Assembly (NCBI RefSeq): GCF_003258315.1
Contig: NZ_CP030032.1
Span: 4,571,501-4,635,500 of the forward strand
Source of the DNA: Bradymonas sediminis
Lineage (GTDB): Bacteria; Myxococcota_A; Bradymonadia; Bradymonadales; Bradymonadaceae
Reading direction: 5' to 3'
DNA: 64,000 nucleotides
Shown: positions 3,237 to 20,306 of the stretch, piece after piece
How the letters are laid out: each line of letters begins with the position of its first letter
Position numbering within the stretch: position 1 is the stretch's first letter
Position numbers and translations under genes: made by a program
The notes under the pieces: generated by a model
Told to the model about the DNA's origin: nothing
Database searches by the model: none
The model's input: only the letters and a program-made list of their open reading frames with translations

Positions 3237-3679
3237 AAATCGGAGTTCTTCAAATAAGGGTTCAGTGGTTCACAGATCGACGTATTAAACACTCGATGCT
3301 CGCCCTTCCCCGCCTTGCGGCGACTGCTTAAAATCCTGCGATTTCAAAATAGAAGGGCTGCTATCTTATAAAGTTCATCGGATAGAATCTTATGGCAACA
3401 ATGCGCTGGTGTCACGGATGTTGCGCAGTTTCGAATCCGCGCGAGCGAAGTCGCAGAATCTTGCGCGTTTTGGCGATAAAGCGGCGTCTCGCGCCGCTCT
3501 GACAGGCATGGGAGGCTCGAGCCGATTAAAAAGCGCGGGCGCGATACGCGATCTCGACGCGCAGAAGCGAGAATGTTATGGCTGCTGCGCTAAAAGCTTC
3601 GTCTCCATATAGAGGCGGCGCGTTGGTTTTTAGCAGATATTCGCCATATCCTCGCTACGACAAATCCTGGTGCGACACG
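3237..3679. other. Divergent intergenic region
   Basis: About 440 bp separates the minus-strand kinase gene from the plus-strand nucleotidyltransferase-cyclase operon, so promoters for both should lie here. A short open frame from 3409 and an N-terminal extension of the downstream ORF from 3578 are not supported by ribosome sites or recognisable protein sequence. No tRNA, hairpin or repeat was convincing. Confidence 0.5.
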
Positions 3680-5563
3680 ATGTACAAAAAAGCCCTGATT
3701 CCCGCCGCCGGACGCGGCGCTCGCCTCGACCGTCCCAATACGCCCAAACCGCTCGTCGATGTCGGCGGACGCCCCATTATCTTCCACCTGCTCAAGCGAC
3801 TTGAGGAGGTTGGGGTGGAGCATGCGGTCATCGTCGTGGGCTATGAAGGCAAGAAGATCGAGCGCCAATTGGCCGCCCACCCCGACTTCAATATGAAGAT
3901 CGAGTTGGTCGAAAACGCCGAGTGGGAAAAGGGCCTGGCGAGCAGCCTGCTGGCGGCGCGCGGGGCGTTCGCGGGGAGCGATGAGCCCTTCTTATTGGCG
4001 ATGGCGGACCATCTTTTCGACGCCGAATTGGTGGCGAAGATGGCGGCGCTTGAGATCGGCGACGACCAGATCGTGTCGATGTTGGTGGACCGGGATACCG
4101 AGCGTATTTACGACATCGACGCGGCCGTGAAGCTCGCGCTCAAACACGACAAGGTCGTGGACGCAGGCCGCCATATCGAGAATTTCCAGGGGATCGACGC
4201 GGGGCTCTTTGCCTGCAAACCGGCGGTCTTCGACGCCCTCGAAGAAGTCCTTGAGGGCACCGATGGCGAACCTGTCGACCTCACCGCCGGCCTTGCAAAG
4301 CTCGGCGCCGCCCAAAAAGTCGGCGCTGCCTATGTCGACGGCGCGCTCTGGTTCGATATCGACACGCCCCCGATGATGATTCGCGCCGAGATGGCGATGC
4401 GCAAACAGCATCGCGTGCAGACGGTGCTGCGCCCCGAGTTCGCCGACGCGAGCGACGTGAAGACCAAAAAATACACCTTTACCACCGGCAAACCGCACGA
4501 GACCGACGTCTATGTGCAGCGCGGATTCGTGCGCAACCCCGACCGCCTGCAGCTTATCCCGGACGCCAGCGCCTCCTCGCCGGTCTATGTGTTCACCGAC
4601 ACGAAGGTGAACTCCATCTACGGCGATGACTTTGTCGGCGGCCTTAAAAAGATGGGCTACGACGTGCGCCGGGTCGTGATGGCCGAGGGCGAAGAAGCGA
4701 AGACCCTCGAGAATTATACCCGCCTGGTCGAGCATGTGATCGGCGAGGGGATCGATGAGCGATCGATCCTGATTTCGCTGGGCGGCGGCGCGGTTTGCAA
4801 CGTCTGCGGATTCCTCGCCTCGACGCTGTATCGCGGCATCGGGCTGGTGCACGTGCCGACGACTTTGATGGCCCAATGCGACGCGGCGATCAGCCACAAA
4901 CAGGGCGTTAACGGCGCGCGCGGCAAGAACCTGGTGGGCTCCTATTACCCGCCGATCAGCATCGCGGTCGACGTCGAGGTGCTCGCCACCCTCGAGGATT
5001 GGCTGATCCCCGACGGCCTCAGCGAGGTCGTCAAGCACGCCCTCGGCCAGGACCCGGAGTACCTGCAATACCTGCTCGACTACGACGGGAGCATCCACGA
5101 CCCGGACTTCTTGGAGACCGTCGTGCGCAAGAATATCGAGCTAAAATGCGAGCTTATGGCCGTCGACCCCAAGGAATACCGCGAGGGCATGGTCCTGCAA
5201 TATGGTCACACCGTCGGCCATCCGATCGAGTTCCTGTCGGCCTATGACCTCAACCACGGCCAGTCGGTGGGCATCGGCATGATGATCGCGGCGCGCGTCT
5301 CGCGCCTGCTGGGCGGTTGCGGCGACGATATCGTCGAGCTGCACGAGCGCCTCATCAAGCAATATAAGCTGCCGACCCGCATCCCCGCGTCGATCGATAT
5401 CGACGATATCATGTCGATGATGCGCTATAATAAGCGCTACCTGACCGAGGGAACGCGCATGGCCTTGGTCGACGGCCCGGGCAGCCTATGGTCGGTCGAC
5501 GGCGATTATGTGATCCCGGTCAGCGACGCTGTGTTGCGCGAGGCGATCAAGCAGACCTACTGA
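3680..5563 (+). CDS. Nucleotidyltransferase / sugar-phosphate-cyclase-like fusion protein
   Basis: A two-domain protein. Residues 1-235 are a sugar/cyclitol nucleotidyltransferase: MYKKALIPAAGRGARL carries the nucleotide-binding loop, followed by NTPKPLVDVGG and an AMADHLFD metal site, as in CTP:inositol-1-phosphate cytidylyltransferases. Residues 260-627 belong to the dehydroquinate-synthase superfamily. They show GGGAVCN, HVPTTLMAQCDA, the KQGVN-GKNLVG block, and metal ligands in SEVVKH, YGHTVGH and NHGQSVG. The SHKQGVN block is closer to 2-deoxy-scyllo-inosose synthases than to true AroB (which has GGKTAVN), so cyclisation of a hexose phosphate to an inosose-like ketone is inferred. Start chosen at 3680, where homology begins; the frame is open from 3578. 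First gene of an operon with the SDR and PfkB kinase. Confidence 0.8.
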   Translation: MYKKALIPAAGRGARLDRPNTPKPLVDVGGRPIIFHLLKRLEEVGVEHAVIVVGYEGKKIERQLAAHPDFNMKIELVENAEWEKGLASSLLAARGAFAGSDEPFLLAMADHLFDAELVAKMAALEIGDDQIVSMLVDRDTERIYDIDAAVKLALKHDKVVDAGRHIENFQGIDAGLFACKPAVFDALEEVLEGTDGEPVDLTAGLAKLGAAQKVGAAYVDGALWFDIDTPPMMIRAEMAMRKQHRVQTVLRPEFADASDVKTKKYTFTTGKPHETDVYVQRGFVRNPDRLQLIPDASASSPVYVFTDTKVNSIYGDDFVGGLKKMGYDVRRVVMAEGEEAKTLENYTRLVEHVIGEGIDERSILISLGGGAVCNVCGFLASTLYRGIGLVHVPTTLMAQCDAAISHKQGVNGARGKNLVGSYYPPISIAVDVEVLATLEDWLIPDGLSEVVKHALGQDPEYLQYLLDYDGSIHDPDFLETVVRKNIELKCELMAVDPKEYREGMVLQYGHTVGHPIEFLSAYDLNHGQSVGIGMMIAARVSRLLGGCGDDIVELHERLIKQYKLPTRIPASIDIDDIMSMMRYNKRYLTEGTRMALVDGPGSLWSVDGDYVIPVSDAVLREAIKQTY

Positions 5564-5590
5564 GTTTTTTAAACTGCGAAGGACCTGATT

Positions 5591-6367
5591 ATGGCTCGAA
5601 AGATTCTTATCACCGGTGGCTCGTCGGGCATTGGACTGGAGAGCGCGCGGGCGTTTCTGAGCGCGGCGTCTGCGCCGTCAGAAGTCGAGGTTATCCTGTG
5701 CGCGCGCAACGCCGAGCGCCTGGCCGAGGCGAAAGCCTCGCTGGTCGCAGGCGGCGCCGCGGCCGAGCAGGTGCGCACGCATTCGCTCGACGTGAGCGAC
5801 CCGGCGGCGGTCGAGGCGTTCTTCGCCGAGGTCGGCCCGGTCGATATTCTGGTCGCAGCCGCCGGCGTCTGCGAGCAGGCGCGCCTGGACGATGAGAATA
5901 GCGACGCGGTGTGGCATCGGGCGATGAATATCAACGTGCACGGCGTCTATAACTGCGTCAAAGCCGCCGCGCGCACGATGCCCGACGGCGGGAGCATCGT
6001 GACGGTGTCCTCCGGCTTGGGAAAGAACGCGCGGGCGGGCTACGAGGCGTATACGGCGAGCAAGCACGCGGTGCTTGGGTTGACCCGCTGCGTGGCCCTG
6101 GAGTTGGCGGCGCGAAAGATCCGCGTCAACGCGGTGTGCCCCGGCTGGGTCGACACGCCAATGTCACGGGCGGACGCGCGCGAGGGCGCGCGGCGCGCCG
6201 GGATGTCCGAAGAGGCATACCGCGCCCAGGCTATCGCCGGCATTCCCCTGGGCCGCATGGTCGCGGCCGAAGACGTGGCCGAGCTTATCGCCTTCTTATG
6301 CTCCGACGCCGCGTCGGTTATCACCGGGCAATCCTATAATATTGCCGGCGGCGAGTTTTTGAATTGA
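5591..6367 (+). CDS. Short-chain dehydrogenase/reductase
   Basis: A classical SDR of 258 residues that should use NAD(P)H. The cofactor motif TGGSSGIG is at residues 8-15, the structural AAAG motif is in VAAAGVC, and the catalytic Ser-Tyr-Lys is seen in VSSGLG and YTASK. The C-terminal PGWVDTPM and GQSYNIAGG segments are typical. It starts 27 bp after the cyclase fusion gene with an AAGGACC ribosome site and is followed within 8 bp by the PfkB kinase. From this context it probably reduces the keto group of the cyclitol ketone made by the upstream enzyme; the substrate itself cannot be read from the sequence. Confidence 0.85.
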   Translation: MARKILITGGSSGIGLESARAFLSAASAPSEVEVILCARNAERLAEAKASLVAGGAAAEQVRTHSLDVSDPAAVEAFFAEVGPVDILVAAAGVCEQARLDDENSDAVWHRAMNINVHGVYNCVKAAARTMPDGGSIVTVSSGLGKNARAGYEAYTASKHAVLGLTRCVALELAARKIRVNAVCPGWVDTPMSRADAREGARRAGMSEEAYRAQAIAGIPLGRMVAAEDVAELIAFLCSDAASVITGQSYNIAGGEFLN

Positions 6368-6374
6368 GGACATT

Positions 6375-7367
6375 ATGAAGACCCTGGTCGTCGGCCATAT
6401 TACCCATGATTATTACGGCGACGAGGTCGTCGCGGGGGGCTGCGCCTTCTACGGCGCGCGGGTTCACGCCGCGCTCGCCGAGCAGGCAAAGCGCGAGGAC
6501 GGCGCCAATTTAAGCGTGCATCTGGTGGCCGTGGCGGGCGATGATTTCGGCTGCGCGCACGAGGTCGCCGACCTCGATCTCACCCTGCATCAGGCCGGCG
6601 AGACGACCGTCTTCGCCAATTATTATCCGACCGATAAGCCGCGCGTTCAGCTCTTAAAGGCGCTGGCTGGCCCGGTCCTGCCGAAGATGGTCCCGCCAGA
6701 GTGGATGCAGGCGGACCTCATTCATCTGGCCCCGGTGCTCGGTGAGATCGACCTCGAAACGTGGAAGACCGCCATCCGCGAGGTCAACCCGGACGCGCTT
6801 ATCGCGATCAATATCCAGGGGTGGATCAAGCGCGCCGGGCCGCTGTTTAAGGGCGATGATTTCCCCGGCGCCCGGCGGGTTGTCCAGGAGTATTGGGGGG
6901 TGGTGGCCGAGGATTTTCGCGGCGTCGATATCGCCTGTTTGAGCGAAGAAGACGTGATCGGACAGCCCGGGCTGCTCGAGAAGCTGACCGAGGCGGTGCC
7001 CCTGGTCGCGTTTACCCGTGGCGAGCTGGGCAGCCAGATTTTCGTGTATGGAGAGCCGGTCGAGGTGGGCATCTATCCGACCGAGGCCAGCGATCCCACG
7101 GGCGCAGGAGACGTGTTCGCGGCGAGTTTTGCGCATCGGGTCGCGCTGGGCGAAGATATGATCGCCGCCGCGCGTTTCGCCGCCGCCGCCGCGTCGATCG
7201 TGGTCGAGGGGCGCGGCGCGCGCGCCCTGAGCCGCATCGACGAGGCCGTCGCCCGCGCCGAGCAGGTGCCCGCCGACGCCCTTGATCTGGGCGAAGAGGA
7301 CTACGGCGACGATGACGACGATGACTACGACGAGTTCGAATTTTGCGGCGAAGTCCACGATGACTAG
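6375..7367 (+). CDS. PfkB-family carbohydrate/cyclitol kinase
   Basis: A 330-residue ribokinase/PfkB-family kinase. The N-terminal VVGHITHDYYGD and AGGCAFYGARV segments match the substrate-binding lid, and the C-terminal SDPTGAGDVFAASFAHRVA contains the anion hole and catalytic Asp (GAGD). This pattern is shared with plant myo-inositol kinase-like PfkB members, although the class is broad. It ends in an unusual acidic tail with a run of six aspartates. It is the third gene of the operon (GAGGA ribosome site, 7 bp gap) and would phosphorylate the reduced cyclitol, giving a substrate for the nucleotidyltransferase domain encoded by the first gene. Confidence 0.8.
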   Translation: MKTLVVGHITHDYYGDEVVAGGCAFYGARVHAALAEQAKREDGANLSVHLVAVAGDDFGCAHEVADLDLTLHQAGETTVFANYYPTDKPRVQLLKALAGPVLPKMVPPEWMQADLIHLAPVLGEIDLETWKTAIREVNPDALIAINIQGWIKRAGPLFKGDDFPGARRVVQEYWGVVAEDFRGVDIACLSEEDVIGQPGLLEKLTEAVPLVAFTRGELGSQIFVYGEPVEVGIYPTEASDPTGAGDVFAASFAHRVALGEDMIAAARFAAAAASIVVEGRGARALSRIDEAVARAEQVPADALDLGEEDYGDDDDDDYDEFEFCGEVHDD

Positions 7368-7411: not shown

Positions 7412-7774
7412 CAACGCTAAGGCCCTCACCCCTCCAGCCCCCCATATGCATCCCCCCAAAAGAGCGAGGCCTGTCAAAAAAGGGGCATCCCTATGGGGGG
7501 TCGAGCCCTCCCGGGGGCCTCGTGAGGCCATCTTAATGGCAGCTCTAGGGCCCTTACCCCACCAGCACCCCCATGCGCATGCCCCCAAAAGAGCGGGGCC
7601 TGTCAAAAAAGGGGCATCCCTATGGGGGGGCGAGCCCTCGCGGGGGCCTCGGGAGGCCATCCCAATGGCAACGCTAAGGCCCTGCCCCCTCCAGCCCCCC
7701 CATGTGCATGCCCCCAAAAGAGCGGGGCCTGCCAAAAAAGGGGCATCCCTATGGGGGGCGAGCCCTCGCGGGGG
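7412..7774. repeat. Three tandem copies of a ~129-bp GC-rich repeat
   Basis: The unit contains, in order, AACGCTAAGGCCCT, a C-rich stretch, CCCCCAAAAGAGCG, a CAAAAAAGGGGCATCCCTAT block, then CGAGCCCTCGCGGGGGCCT. The AGAGCG landmark recurs at 7461, 7589 and 7719, giving periods of 128 and 130 bp. Copies differ by scattered substitutions, and the last is cut short. The array fills the gap between two convergent transcription units (PfkB kinase and Rieske gene). Open frames on both strands across it merely translate the repeat and are not believed to be genes. It may act as a terminator region; a family of dispersed repeats elsewhere in the genome is possible but cannot be tested here. Confidence 0.85.
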
Positions 7775-17292: not shown

Positions 17293-18102
17293 ATGGGAAG
17301 GCATGTCAGCAATATGCGTGTTTTCGCGCGTCGACGCGGTGTCGATATATGGCGAAAACGCGGCGGCCTGGGGATAAAAATAGCGGTCTTTGCGGGGGTG
17401 TTATTTTCGGCCGAATCGGCGTGGGCCCAGGCGCCCGGGGCGGGCGGAAGCCCGCTGACAATGGTGGTCGCGCTGGGCTTGCTCGCCCTGTTGCCATTTT
17501 TGCTGATTATGGTCACCAGCTTTGTGAAGGTCGCGGTGGTTTTGTCGCTACTTCGCACTGCGATTGGCGCTCAATCGGTGCCGCCCAATCAGGTGATCAC
17601 CGGTCTCGCGATCGTGTTGAGCATCTATATCATGGCGCCGGTGGGCATGCAGATCTACCAGGAAGTTGCGCCGACCGTCGAAGCCTTCGAAGAGAGCAAT
17701 ACCCGCCCCGGTTTTGACGAATACCGCGACCTCGCCCGGCGCACCGCCGACCCGCTGCGCGCGTTTTTGGTCAAACACGCGCACGCGGTCGAGAAGGAGC
17801 TGCTCTTTGACCTTGCGCTCGAGCTTCGCCCGCCGGAGCAGCGCGAGGACGTCGAGCGCGATGACCTCATCATCCTAATCCCGGCGTTCGTCGTAAGCGA
17901 GCTTAAGGAAGCGTTCACCATCGGGTTTATCCTATTTGTGCCCTTTATCGTGGTCGATATGGTGATCGCTAATATTCTGCTGAGCCTGGGCATGCATATG
18001 CTCAGCCCCACCACCATCAGTTTGCCCTTCAAATTATTGCTCTTTGTGCTCGTCGACGGCTGGTTTCTGGTCGTGAAGGGGCTTGTGCTGGGCTACGTCT
18101 AA
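17293..18102 (+). CDS. sctR: Type III secretion export-gate protein SctR (FliP family)
   Basis: A core subunit of the type III export gate in the inner membrane. The 269-residue protein has an N-terminal signal sequence ending AESAWAQ, as FliP proteins often do. The conserved core TSFVKVAVVLSLLRTAIG and PPNQVITGLAIVLSIYIMAP, then SELKEAFTIGF and LPFKLLLFVLVDGW, resembles SctR more than FliP. The periplasmic middle (about 120-180) is highly charged. The ATG at 17293 has a GAGAGGGA ribosome site. Next come sctS, sctT and sctU in the universal order. No needle, ATPase or ring genes are in the window, so the rest of the machine must lie elsewhere. Confidence 0.82.
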   Translation: MGRHVSNMRVFARRRGVDIWRKRGGLGIKIAVFAGVLFSAESAWAQAPGAGGSPLTMVVALGLLALLPFLLIMVTSFVKVAVVLSLLRTAIGAQSVPPNQVITGLAIVLSIYIMAPVGMQIYQEVAPTVEAFEESNTRPGFDEYRDLARRTADPLRAFLVKHAHAVEKELLFDLALELRPPEQREDVERDDLIILIPAFVVSELKEAFTIGFILFVPFIVVDMVIANILLSLGMHMLSPTTISLPFKLLLFVLVDGWFLVVKGLVLGYV

Positions 18103-18122
18103 TCTTCGCCGGAGAGCATGTG

Positions 18123-18386
18123 ATGGAGAATTATATTCTGCAGATTACCCGCCAGGCGCTTCTTTTGGTGCTGATTGTGTCGGCGCCGCCGGTGATGGCG
18201 AGTCTGGTGGTGGGGCTGATGCTGAGCGTGTTTCAGGCGACGACCCAGATTCAGGAGCAGACGCTGACCTTTGTGCCAAAGCTTATCGCGGTCTTTGTGA
18301 GTCTGGTCATCGCGGGGCCGTGGATCGGCGGGCAATTGCTGGCGTTTACACGCCTACTTTTCGAGGGCTTCCCGGAGTTCTTTTGA
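18123..18386 (+). CDS. sctS: Type III secretion export-gate protein SctS (FliQ family)
   Basis: An 87-residue protein with two hydrophobic hairpin helices (about 12-38 and 50-72), the SctS/FliQ fold that wraps the SctR-SctT pore. The segment SAPPVMASLVVGLMLSVFQATTQIQEQTL is the family signature; SAPPV and the TQIQEQTL turn are seen in injectisome SctS. It lies 20 bp after sctR with a GGAGAG ribosome site and 43 bp before sctT. Confidence 0.87.
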   Translation: MENYILQITRQALLLVLIVSAPPVMASLVVGLMLSVFQATTQIQEQTLTFVPKLIAVFVSLVIAGPWIGGQLLAFTRLLFEGFPEFF

Positions 18387-18429
18387 GCCCCATTCACCAG
18401 GCTGTGCGACAAAGCGAGGCGGTGGTTGC

Positions 18430-19248
18430 ATGTGGGAGTTTCTGACCGATCAGGGCGTTCAGCGGGGCATCGACCAGGCGATTTTGCTGGCGGTGCTGGT
18501 GTCTGCGCGCATGGCGCCGGTGGTCTATTTGGTGCCGTATTTGGGCGGGCAGGCGATGCCGCAGCAGGTGAAGATGGGCATCTCGATCGCGCTGACGATC
18601 CTGGTGTACCCGGCGGTGTGGCAGATGGGCGCGGCGGCGGCGCTGCCGGCCGGGTCGCTGCATATCACCGCGCTAATCCTCAAAGAGTTAGTGGTCGGGT
18701 TGATGATCGGTTTTATCGCCGCGCTCGCCTTCGACGCGATGCGAATCGCCGGGCAATTGATCGACGGGGCGCGGGGGCAAACGATGGCGACCGCGATGGT
18801 GCCGCAGCTCAAGAGCCAGGAGAGCGTGTCGGCCGATCTTCTCTACCAACTCGGGGTGGTGGTCTTTTTGCTCAGCGGCGGGCATCGGCTTTTTTTAGCG
18901 GCGTTGGTTCGCAGCTATGTGATGCTGCCGCCGACGCGGTTCCCGAATTTCGGGGAGAATCTGCAGACCATCACCTTCGGCCTGGTGCGCCTGGCCGCCG
19001 ACGCGATCACGCTCGGCGTTCTGCTCGCCTTTCCGGTCGTCGCGGCGATTCTGCTCATGAATATTATGCTCGCGCTGGTCAACAAAACCGCGCCGCAGAT
19101 CAACGTGTTCTTTCTGGGGATGCCGATTAAGGCGGTGCTGGGCGTGGCCATCTTATTGGTGGGCCTGCATGTCGTCATCGACCGGTTTTTGGAAGACGCG
19201 ACGCTCAGCGTGGTGCATGTGCTTCAGCTTTTGGAGCTTATGCAATGA
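18430..19248 (+). CDS. sctT: Type III secretion export-gate protein SctT (FliR family)
   Basis: A 272-residue polytopic inner-membrane protein, the SctT/FliR subunit that closes the export-gate ring. Family landmarks include SARMAPVVYLVPYLGGQAMP near the N-terminus, LKELVVGLMIGFIAALAFDAM, GQLIDGARGQTMA and, near the C-terminus, ALVNKTAPQINVFFLGMPIK. There are about seven hydrophobic segments. The stop codon overlaps the sctU start (ATGA), indicating coupled translation and roughly matched synthesis. Confidence 0.87.
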   Translation: MWEFLTDQGVQRGIDQAILLAVLVSARMAPVVYLVPYLGGQAMPQQVKMGISIALTILVYPAVWQMGAAAALPAGSLHITALILKELVVGLMIGFIAALAFDAMRIAGQLIDGARGQTMATAMVPQLKSQESVSADLLYQLGVVVFLLSGGHRLFLAALVRSYVMLPPTRFPNFGENLQTITFGLVRLAADAITLGVLLAFPVVAAILLMNIMLALVNKTAPQINVFFLGMPIKAVLGVAILLVGLHVVIDRFLEDATLSVVHVLQLLELMQ

Positions 19249-20306
19249 GCGAAAAGACCGAAAAACCCACACAGAAGCGCCGCGATAAGGCGCGCAAAGA
19301 GGGCAATGTTGCGAAGTCGGCGGAGTTCACCGGCGCGATGGTCGTGCTCTTTGCCTGGGCGGGGCTGAGCGCGTGGATGACGGTGATCGTGGGGCGCTCC
19401 GCCGGGTTGATTACGCATAGTATTGAGCTCGTATCGGGGCGCAACCCGACACAGGCCGATATTGGGCCATTCTTATTGGCCGCGCTCTCCGAGCTCGGCC
19501 TGATGATCGCGCCGCCGCTCGCGTTGGCTTTCGTGGCGGCGCTGTTTTTCAATTATGTGCAAATCGGCGCGCTCTTTACCCTGGAGCCGCTCATGCCCCA
19601 GGGCAAACGCCTCGACCCGGTTGGCGGCTTTAAGAAGATGTTCGCCCCCAAAAAGCTCGTCGATTTGGCCAAAAATATTGCAAAATTAACGGTCTCGGGC
19701 CTGCTCGGGTATCTGGTGATTCGCGATAAATTACCGATGCTTATCGAACTTCCGCGCATGACGCTGTCGAAGGGCATGATCATCGTGTCGGACGTGGTCT
19801 TCGACCTGTGCATGTATTTGGGCGGGGCGCTTATCGGGTTTGGGATCGCCGATTTATTCTGGCAGCGCCATCAGCATGAGCAGGGCCTGATGATGGGGAA
19901 AGACGAGATCAAACGCGAGTATAAGGAGGCCCAGGGAGACCAGCAGGTGAAGGGCGAGCGTAAAAAACTCCACCGCGAATTGCTGCGCGGCGGCGGCACC
20001 AAGCAGGTTAAAAAGGCCGACGCGGTGGTGGTCAACCCGACCCATATCGCGGTGGCGCTTCGCTATGACGCGGACGCCGGCGGCGCGCCGCGAGTGCTGT
20101 CGGCCGGGCGCGGTGAAGTCGCCAAGGAGATCAAACGTCTGGCTCGGCGCTACGGCATCCCGATCGTCAAGAATATCGACCTTGCGCGGGCGCTGGTCGA
20201 CACCGAGATCGACTCGGAGATCCCGGCCGAGTTTTACGAACCCGTGGCCGAATTGCTGACCTATGTGTATCGACTCAGACAGGAGAGGGAAAATGATTCT
20301 CAATGA
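19245..20306 (+). CDS. sctU: Type III secretion switch protein SctU (FlhB family)
   Basis: SctU switches substrate specificity of the export apparatus. The 353-residue protein begins with the charged EKTEKPTQKRRDKARKEGNV typical of the family and has four transmembrane helices (about 29-52, 76-105, 143-165, 175-203). The cytoplasmic domain contains the self-cleaving motif N264-P-T-H267, needed for the switch, followed by YGIPIVKNIDLARAL. All features of a working autoprotease are present. The 3' end overlaps the TPR gene by 14 bp. Confidence 0.9.
   Translation: MSEKTEKPTQKRRDKARKEGNVAKSAEFTGAMVVLFAWAGLSAWMTVIVGRSAGLITHSIELVSGRNPTQADIGPFLLAALSELGLMIAPPLALAFVAALFFNYVQIGALFTLEPLMPQGKRLDPVGGFKKMFAPKKLVDLAKNIAKLTVSGLLGYLVIRDKLPMLIELPRMTLSKGMIIVSDVVFDLCMYLGGALIGFGIADLFWQRHQHEQGLMMGKDEIKREYKEAQGDQQVKGERKKLHRELLRGGGTKQVKKADAVVVNPTHIAVALRYDADAGGAPRVLSAGRGEVAKEIKRLARRYGIPIVKNIDLARALVDTEIDSEIPAEFYEPVAELLTYVYRLRQERENDSQ

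Follow-up and report, generated by a model that had tools for sequence, protein, structure and literature searches.

The cassette and its distribution

The analysed stretch of DNA, here called the window, covers 64,000 nucleotides of the predatory marine bacterium Bradymonas sediminis (contig NZ_CP030032.1, positions 4,571,501 to 4,635,500; its genome consists of a single contig, 5,045,683 bases long) and carries three adjoining genes, which encode a nucleotidyltransferase-cyclase fusion, an oxidoreductase of the short-chain dehydrogenase/reductase (SDR) family and a PfkB-family kinase (Table 1). Open reading frames, Pfam matches and the start at 3680 agree with an earlier reading of the letters, made without database searches (the sequence-only reading), that had proposed these genes at 3680-7367 of the forward strand. 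Together they would suffice to make a six-membered cyclitol that lacks a carboxylate and is activated by a nucleotide, probably CDP-deoxyinositol.

Table 1. Genes, domains and motifs of the cassette (window positions)
Feature	Position	Strand	Basis or remark
Nucleotidyltransferase-cyclase fusion	3680..5563	+	627 aa from conserved ATG; frame open from upstream ATG at 3578
N-terminal COG1213-type nucleotidyltransferase, CTP:inositol-1-phosphate cytidylyltransferase-like	3689..4399	+	Pfam NTP_transferase span; 2xme; NF041135
C-terminal sugar-phosphate cyclase domain, DOIS-type	4550..5485	+	TIGR01357 span; trees
H406-K407-Q408 'SHKQ' loop	4895..4903	+	common to DOIS; DHQS has GGKT; K407 aligns with BtrC K141
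G503...Q507-Y508-G509-H510-T511	5186..5212	+	Gly at DHQS Arg264, Gln at Asn268, metal-ligand His kept
SDR oxidoreductase	5591..6367	+	Pfam match; catalytic residues; predicted inosose reductase
PfkB-family kinase	6375..7367	+	Pfam, profile and fold match; predicted cyclitol (inositol-type) kinase

Both halves of the fusion are recognized by Pfam within one frame, namely NTP_transferase (E 5e-10) and NTP_transf_3 (4e-17), together with DHQ_synthase (5e-32) and DHQS_C (3e-30), which make up a complete two-part cyclase of the dehydroquinate synthase (DHQS) type. The SDR matches adh_short_C2 (5e-52) and the kinase PfkB (3e-15). Counted from the upstream ATG, the fusion frame has 661 codons (3578-5563), and the start in relatives is the ATG at 3680. 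Gaps of 27 bases between fusion and SDR and of 7 bases between SDR and kinase are compatible with a single transcript.

The fusion occurs as one frame in many relatives, with identities from 74% to 46%, and since it is uninterrupted in genome G010 (74%), in Lujinxingia and in many other Myxococcota, it is not an assembly artefact. Matches at E 1e-80 were found in 24 of 331 Myxococcota genomes, scattered over at least eight families, a few of them partial or unfused; in two genomes (G053 and G208) the match is limited to the cyclase domain, followed by SDR and PfkB. A species-wide contig scan that uses short conserved peptides, and so may miss some loci, found 26 loci with the fusion or a fragment of it, all from Myxococcota or from records named Deltaproteobacteria, proteobacterium or just bacterium; its other matches were distant unfused cyclases only. 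The order fusion-SDR-PfkB is conserved while the flanks change, and a search for conserved neighbours of the cassette found none except an inositol-lipid cluster in two genera. The cassette is conserved in Myxococcota but patchily distributed. The kinase family is present in all 17 fusion-bearing genomes vs 2 of 41 without the fusion (Fisher p 9e-13, uncorrected for kinship), and in G005, G029 and G051 it is present though unlinked to the fusion, so that kinase and cyclase are tied beyond mere neighbourhood.

In the window, the genes around the cassette are unrelated to it and lie on the opposite strand: a serine/threonine kinase upstream, and a Rieske protein, PrfA and Rho downstream (the latter two recognized by eye). 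No aminotransferase or antibiotic genes adjoin the cassette. Just 3' of the kinase gene there is a tandem repeat (129 bp, 2.8 copies, 7412-7774), and the kinase itself ends in an Asp-rich tail (7281-7364), which is predicted to be disordered and is not found in relatives. Export-apparatus genes resembling FliP, FliR and FlhB (flagellar or type III) were noticed by eye at 17293-20306.

Predicted activities of the encoded enzymes

The phylogeny proposed with the sequence-only reading, i.e., that of the cyclase against AroB, 2-deoxy-scyllo-inosose synthase (DOIS) and 2-epi-5-epi-valiolone synthase (EEVS), places the domain on the DOIS side. In a tree of 45 rows, from which some mistranslated sequences of loci on the other strand were excluded, the fusions form one group (100/100), and this group joins with DOIS and an unfused gene from Myxococcota at 100/98. 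The fusion group (100/99-100 across both trees) is still joined to DOIS at 100/98 in a second tree with long branches removed, which includes three DOIS rows only and in which branches are long. The earlier label 'deoxy-inosose-synthase-like' is borne out by this grouping, which is with DOIS and not with DHQS.

The residues point in the same direction. With BtrC and two further proteins of the DOIS or DOIS-like kind, the fusions share GGGxxxN, the loop (S/G)xKQ(A/G)xN and a Gly at the DHQS Arg position, where the Sodalis protein among them and some fusions have Ala. An arginine of the Arg264 type (Arg264 and Asn268 are numbered as in Aspergillus DHQS) helps DHQS to bind the carboxylate of 3-deoxy-D-arabino-heptulosonate 7-phosphate. 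Apart from these two positions, all catalytic and metal residues are kept in the fusion cyclase. Elsewhere in the genome lies another gene of the cyclase family, which encodes an AroB-AroA fusion protein 762 residues long. This protein retains the loop GGKT and, ahead of the His that binds the metal, the Arg/Asn pair; it reads GIRTVLNLGH where the window cyclase reads EGMVLQYGH in the alignment. On these residues and trees the domain is almost certainly not a DHQS. The refuting case named with the sequence-only reading, a domain that falls among true dehydroquinate synthases in a genome with no second aroB, therefore does not apply. DOIS acts on glucose-6-phosphate (PMC6170601), and conversion of this substrate to deoxyinosose is the probable reaction of the window cyclase as well. 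At the position of BtrC E243 the window fusion and all fusions shown have Gln, whereas the DOIS aligned here have Glu, for which reason the domain is filed as DOIS-like rather than DOIS.

AroB-AroA, a shikimate DHQS fused to EPSP synthase, lies at 4581-6869 of locus L003 (G000 C1:2380580-2382868), and long frames of 730-780 residues resembling it occur in relatives of the family. In another family of Myxococcota, the end of a contig carries a DOIS-like gene that is not fused, has the Glu found in true DOIS and sits on a long tree branch (L051, 3791-4930).

The closest PDB match of the nucleotidyltransferase is the CTP:inositol-1-phosphate cytidylyltransferase (IPCT) 2xme (E 8e-21), and its top NCBIfam match is NF041135, the model of archaeal inositol-phosphate cytidylyltransferases. 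R15, K23 and D110 (numbered from 3680) are invariant among fusions and correspond, by motif position, to R16, K26 and D112, the active-site residues of Thermotoga IPCT (PMC12275187). Related nucleotidyltransferases are found in operons of myo-inositol-phosphate synthase (MIPS) in other Myxococcota and in Sphingomonas, some with a CDP-alcohol phosphotransferase, and a CDP-inositol route with similar gene arrangement was proposed in Bacteroidetes (PMC9246714). CTP is the likely nucleotide donor. Separately, MIPS-type nucleotidyltransferases of five loci (L102, L103, L104, L111 and L197) carry about 235 extra C-terminal residues, which in L197 show weak similarity to a CDP-alcohol transferase; those of L102-L104 adjoin MIPS, which suggests that Myxococcota have a CDP-inositol route.

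Single-sequence searches with the kinase match its C-terminal half only. A profile of 15 cassette kinases gave a full-length match to Thermococcus myo-inositol 3-kinase (3w4s/4xf7, E 6e-16), and matches of the same length to the TM0415 group of Thermotoga (1vk4, 5ysp, 7e4l), a family of pyrophosphate (PPi)-dependent inositol kinases; among the PDB matches listed, nearly all other PfkB entries align at the C-terminal part only. The structural model (pLDDT 90) has 3w4s as its top Foldseek match in PDB (E 4e-20, TM 0.85 by target); TM0415 gives a TM of 0.75-0.81, and the ribokinases listed give 0.70 or less. Inositol is contacted in the archaeal kinase by D12, G26, Q136, R140 and D219 (PMC5931981), which align with D12, G21/22, Q148, K152 and D246, all invariant in cassette kinases; four of the five are identical and Arg140 is replaced by Lys. 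The PfkB protein is likely a cyclitol kinase, as predicted from profile, fold and contacts. A heptose (HldE-like) kinase was considered and rejected, since the NCBIfam heptose-kinase match spans the C-terminal third only and falls far below cut-off. In the SDR, the catalytic N115, S141, Y154 and K158 are invariant, and no match to PDB was obtained at E 1e-60; it is predicted to be an inosose reductase.

Proposed route and destination of the product

Gene content, conservation of the cassette, phylogeny and residues of the cyclase, and the relationships of kinase and nucleotidyltransferase were computed, and from these we infer every substrate, the order of reactions, the CTP donor and the destination. 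In the proposed route the cyclase half would first convert glucose-6-phosphate, which loses its phosphate, to 2-deoxy-scyllo-inosose, and reduction of the ketone by the SDR would yield a deoxyinositol, i.e., a quercitol. The kinase would then phosphorylate a ring hydroxyl, and the nucleotidyltransferase half would transfer CMP from CTP to give CDP-deoxyinositol. Fusion of the first and the last enzyme may channel or balance the flux. Cyclase, kinase and nucleotidyltransferase each point independently to inositol-like substrates, in support of cyclitol activation, the main idea of the sequence-only reading. Finally, a CDP-alcohol phosphotransferase or a similar enzyme would pass the activated cyclitol to a lipid, solute or glycan.

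Use of the product as a lipid head group is a plausible but tentative proposal. In two genera (G006 and G010) a divergent inositol-lipid-like cluster of MIPS, CDP-alcohol transferase, MMPL and PAP2_3/AUR1-like genes adjoins the cassette. The CDP-alcohol transferase motif was present in the fetched flanks of 5 of 24 cassette loci, against 0.46 expected, but two of the five resemble PgsA of the housekeeping type. In family f1, all relatives without MIPS hold the cassette; MIPS is present in 9/9 non-holders and missing from 6/12 cassette holders (p 0.019), a pattern that was noted post hoc and comes from few lineages, some of them incomplete. It is rather unlikely that a primary pathway of Myxococcota, with a DOIS-type cyclase fused to a cytidylyltransferase, makes CDP-deoxyinositol (CDP-quercitol) from glucose-6-phosphate to replace inositol in membrane lipids, some lineages having dropped inositol synthesis entirely; that deoxyinositol replaces inositol as head group is put forward as a hypothesis, not a result. 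The inositol-lipid cluster was rejected as a required partner, because PIPS and PAP2_3 are missing from MIPS-less holders. Bradymonas has this inositol-lipid-like cluster as well, about 253 kb from the cassette (L098, 7920-14522; G000 about C1:4829919-4836521).

Several points, the limits of the second tree and of the f1 pattern among them, weigh against the route or its extension to lipids. The Gln at the BtrC E243 position suggests that the substrate may differ from glucose-6-phosphate, and the fold search of the cyclase (Foldseek) fails to separate DOIS from DHQS, with DHQS structures ranking first. The tree of nucleotidyltransferases is weakly resolved on a clade with IPCT, and the substrate of the SDR is a prediction. 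None of the named polar lipids on record for Bradymonas and for Persicimonas is inositol-like, although there are unidentified ones as well (PMC7188933). Among 68 sequences from 11 genomes, no class of CDP-alcohol phosphotransferase was specific to cassette holders; with no dedicated enzyme of this kind found, the lipid head group or compatible solute suggested as destination by the sequence-only reading is not established.

The activated cyclitol could instead serve a solute, such as an analogue of di-inositol-phosphate, or a surface polysaccharide, which is possible, if somewhat doubtful. Among characterised enzymes, the nucleotidyltransferases and inositol kinases most closely related belong to hyperthermophiles, in which CDP-inositol feeds di-myo-inositol phosphate (PMC12275187), and Bradymonadales inhabit saline places (PMC7460792). 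The variable neighbours of the cassette and the missing holder-specific lipid transferase also fit such a use. It is opposed by the two genera in which the cassette is divergent beside MIPS, CDP-alcohol transferase, MMPL and PAP2_3, and by one further genome, in which a CDP-alcohol transferase and a nucleotidyltransferase adjoin an unfused cassette. At L049 (1032-2524), a CDP-alcohol transferase and a phosphocholine-cytidylyltransferase-like gene lie divergent from an unfused cyclase-SDR-kinase cassette.

Alternative identities and wider meaning

A cyclase acting on sedoheptulose-7-phosphate, in an operon that yields a nucleotide-bound C7 carbasugar like those of acarbose and validamycin, would share the overall logic of cyclase, reductase, kinase and nucleotidyltransferase, and the departure of the fusion from DOIS at the Glu243 position speaks in its favour. 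EEVS, DDGS and EboD, however, form a separate supported clade in the trees, and grouping of the fusions with them was rejected in the approximately unbiased (AU) test at a modest p of 0.023. The motif near the metal His of EEVS and DDGS (NLxE...GHxxSP) is absent from the fusion as well, which leaves such an operon improbable. The analogy to acarbose and validamycin, drawn in the sequence-only reading, consequently stands for the scheme of cyclising, reducing, phosphorylating and activating with a nucleotide, and falls for the type of cyclase, which in those pathways is an EEVS on a C7 sugar and belongs to another clade of the superfamily. It is also quite improbable that kinase and nucleotidyltransferase serve myo-inositol salvage while cyclase and SDR make something unrelated. 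The kinase residues do match inositol contacts, and many fusion holders also carry MIPS, but a single polypeptide comprises both cyclase and nucleotidyltransferase, the kinase accompanies the fusion in 17/17 genomes, and Lujinxingia-type genomes have the cassette without MIPS. That the cyclase is an ordinary DHQS fused to a nucleotidyltransferase is scarcely credible, since, despite aroB being its best named model in Pfam and NCBIfam and despite the Foldseek ranking, it scores 258 bits against the aroB cut-off of 305 (missed also by the genome's AroB-AroA, 239), has neither the Arg of the carboxylate region nor the loop GGKT, coexists with a separate AroB-AroA, and is disfavoured among DHQS by an AU p of 0.024, likewise modest. 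DHQS and EEVS-type identities are thus both rejected by residues and trees.

Closer parallels than acarbose and validamycin are offered by the formation of CDP-inositol and, in aminoglycoside pathways, by the DOIS step. With DOIS of the 2-deoxystreptamine aminoglycosides (BtrC), the window cyclase has in common the clade, the KQ loop, the Gly at the DHQS Arg position and the metal and catalytic residues; it differs in its fusion to a nucleotidyltransferase, the Gln at E243, the lack of adjoining aminotransferase or antibiotic genes and its patchy occurrence in Myxococcota. IPCT and the operons of MIPS, nucleotidyltransferase and CDP-alcohol transferase resemble the cassette in the nucleotidyltransferase family, its catalytic Arg, Lys and Asp, and a CDP-cyclitol derived from hexose phosphate. 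The ring made by MIPS is, in contrast, already phosphorylated, whereas the cassette would use cyclase, SDR and kinase in three steps, with the cyclase fused to the transferase. The cassette kinase is like Thermococcus myo-inositol 3-kinase and Thermotoga TM0415 in full-length profile, fold and inositol contacts, and unlike them in its Lys for Arg140; identity is about 20%, its donor may be ATP or PPi, and its acceptor is predicted. In the EboD cluster of eustigmatophytes and bacteria, too, a conserved operon outside antibiotic synthesis contains a sugar-phosphate cyclase that is uncharacterised, but EboD groups with EEVS/DDGS and is accompanied by UbiA and EboE instead of a kinase and a nucleotidyltransferase.

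It is mainly in aminoglycoside makers that inosose synthases with a DHQS fold have been described. In the literature searched, no paper on CDP-deoxyinositol or on a fusion-SDR-PfkB cassette turned up. For annotation, aroB, the best-scoring database model for the fusion proteins, is misleading. If the proposal is true, a DOIS-type enzyme would gain a role outside antibiotics, as no aminoglycoside genes adjoin the cassette, a nucleotide-cyclitol not found in that literature would be added, and deoxyinositol lipids, solutes or glycans would be expected.

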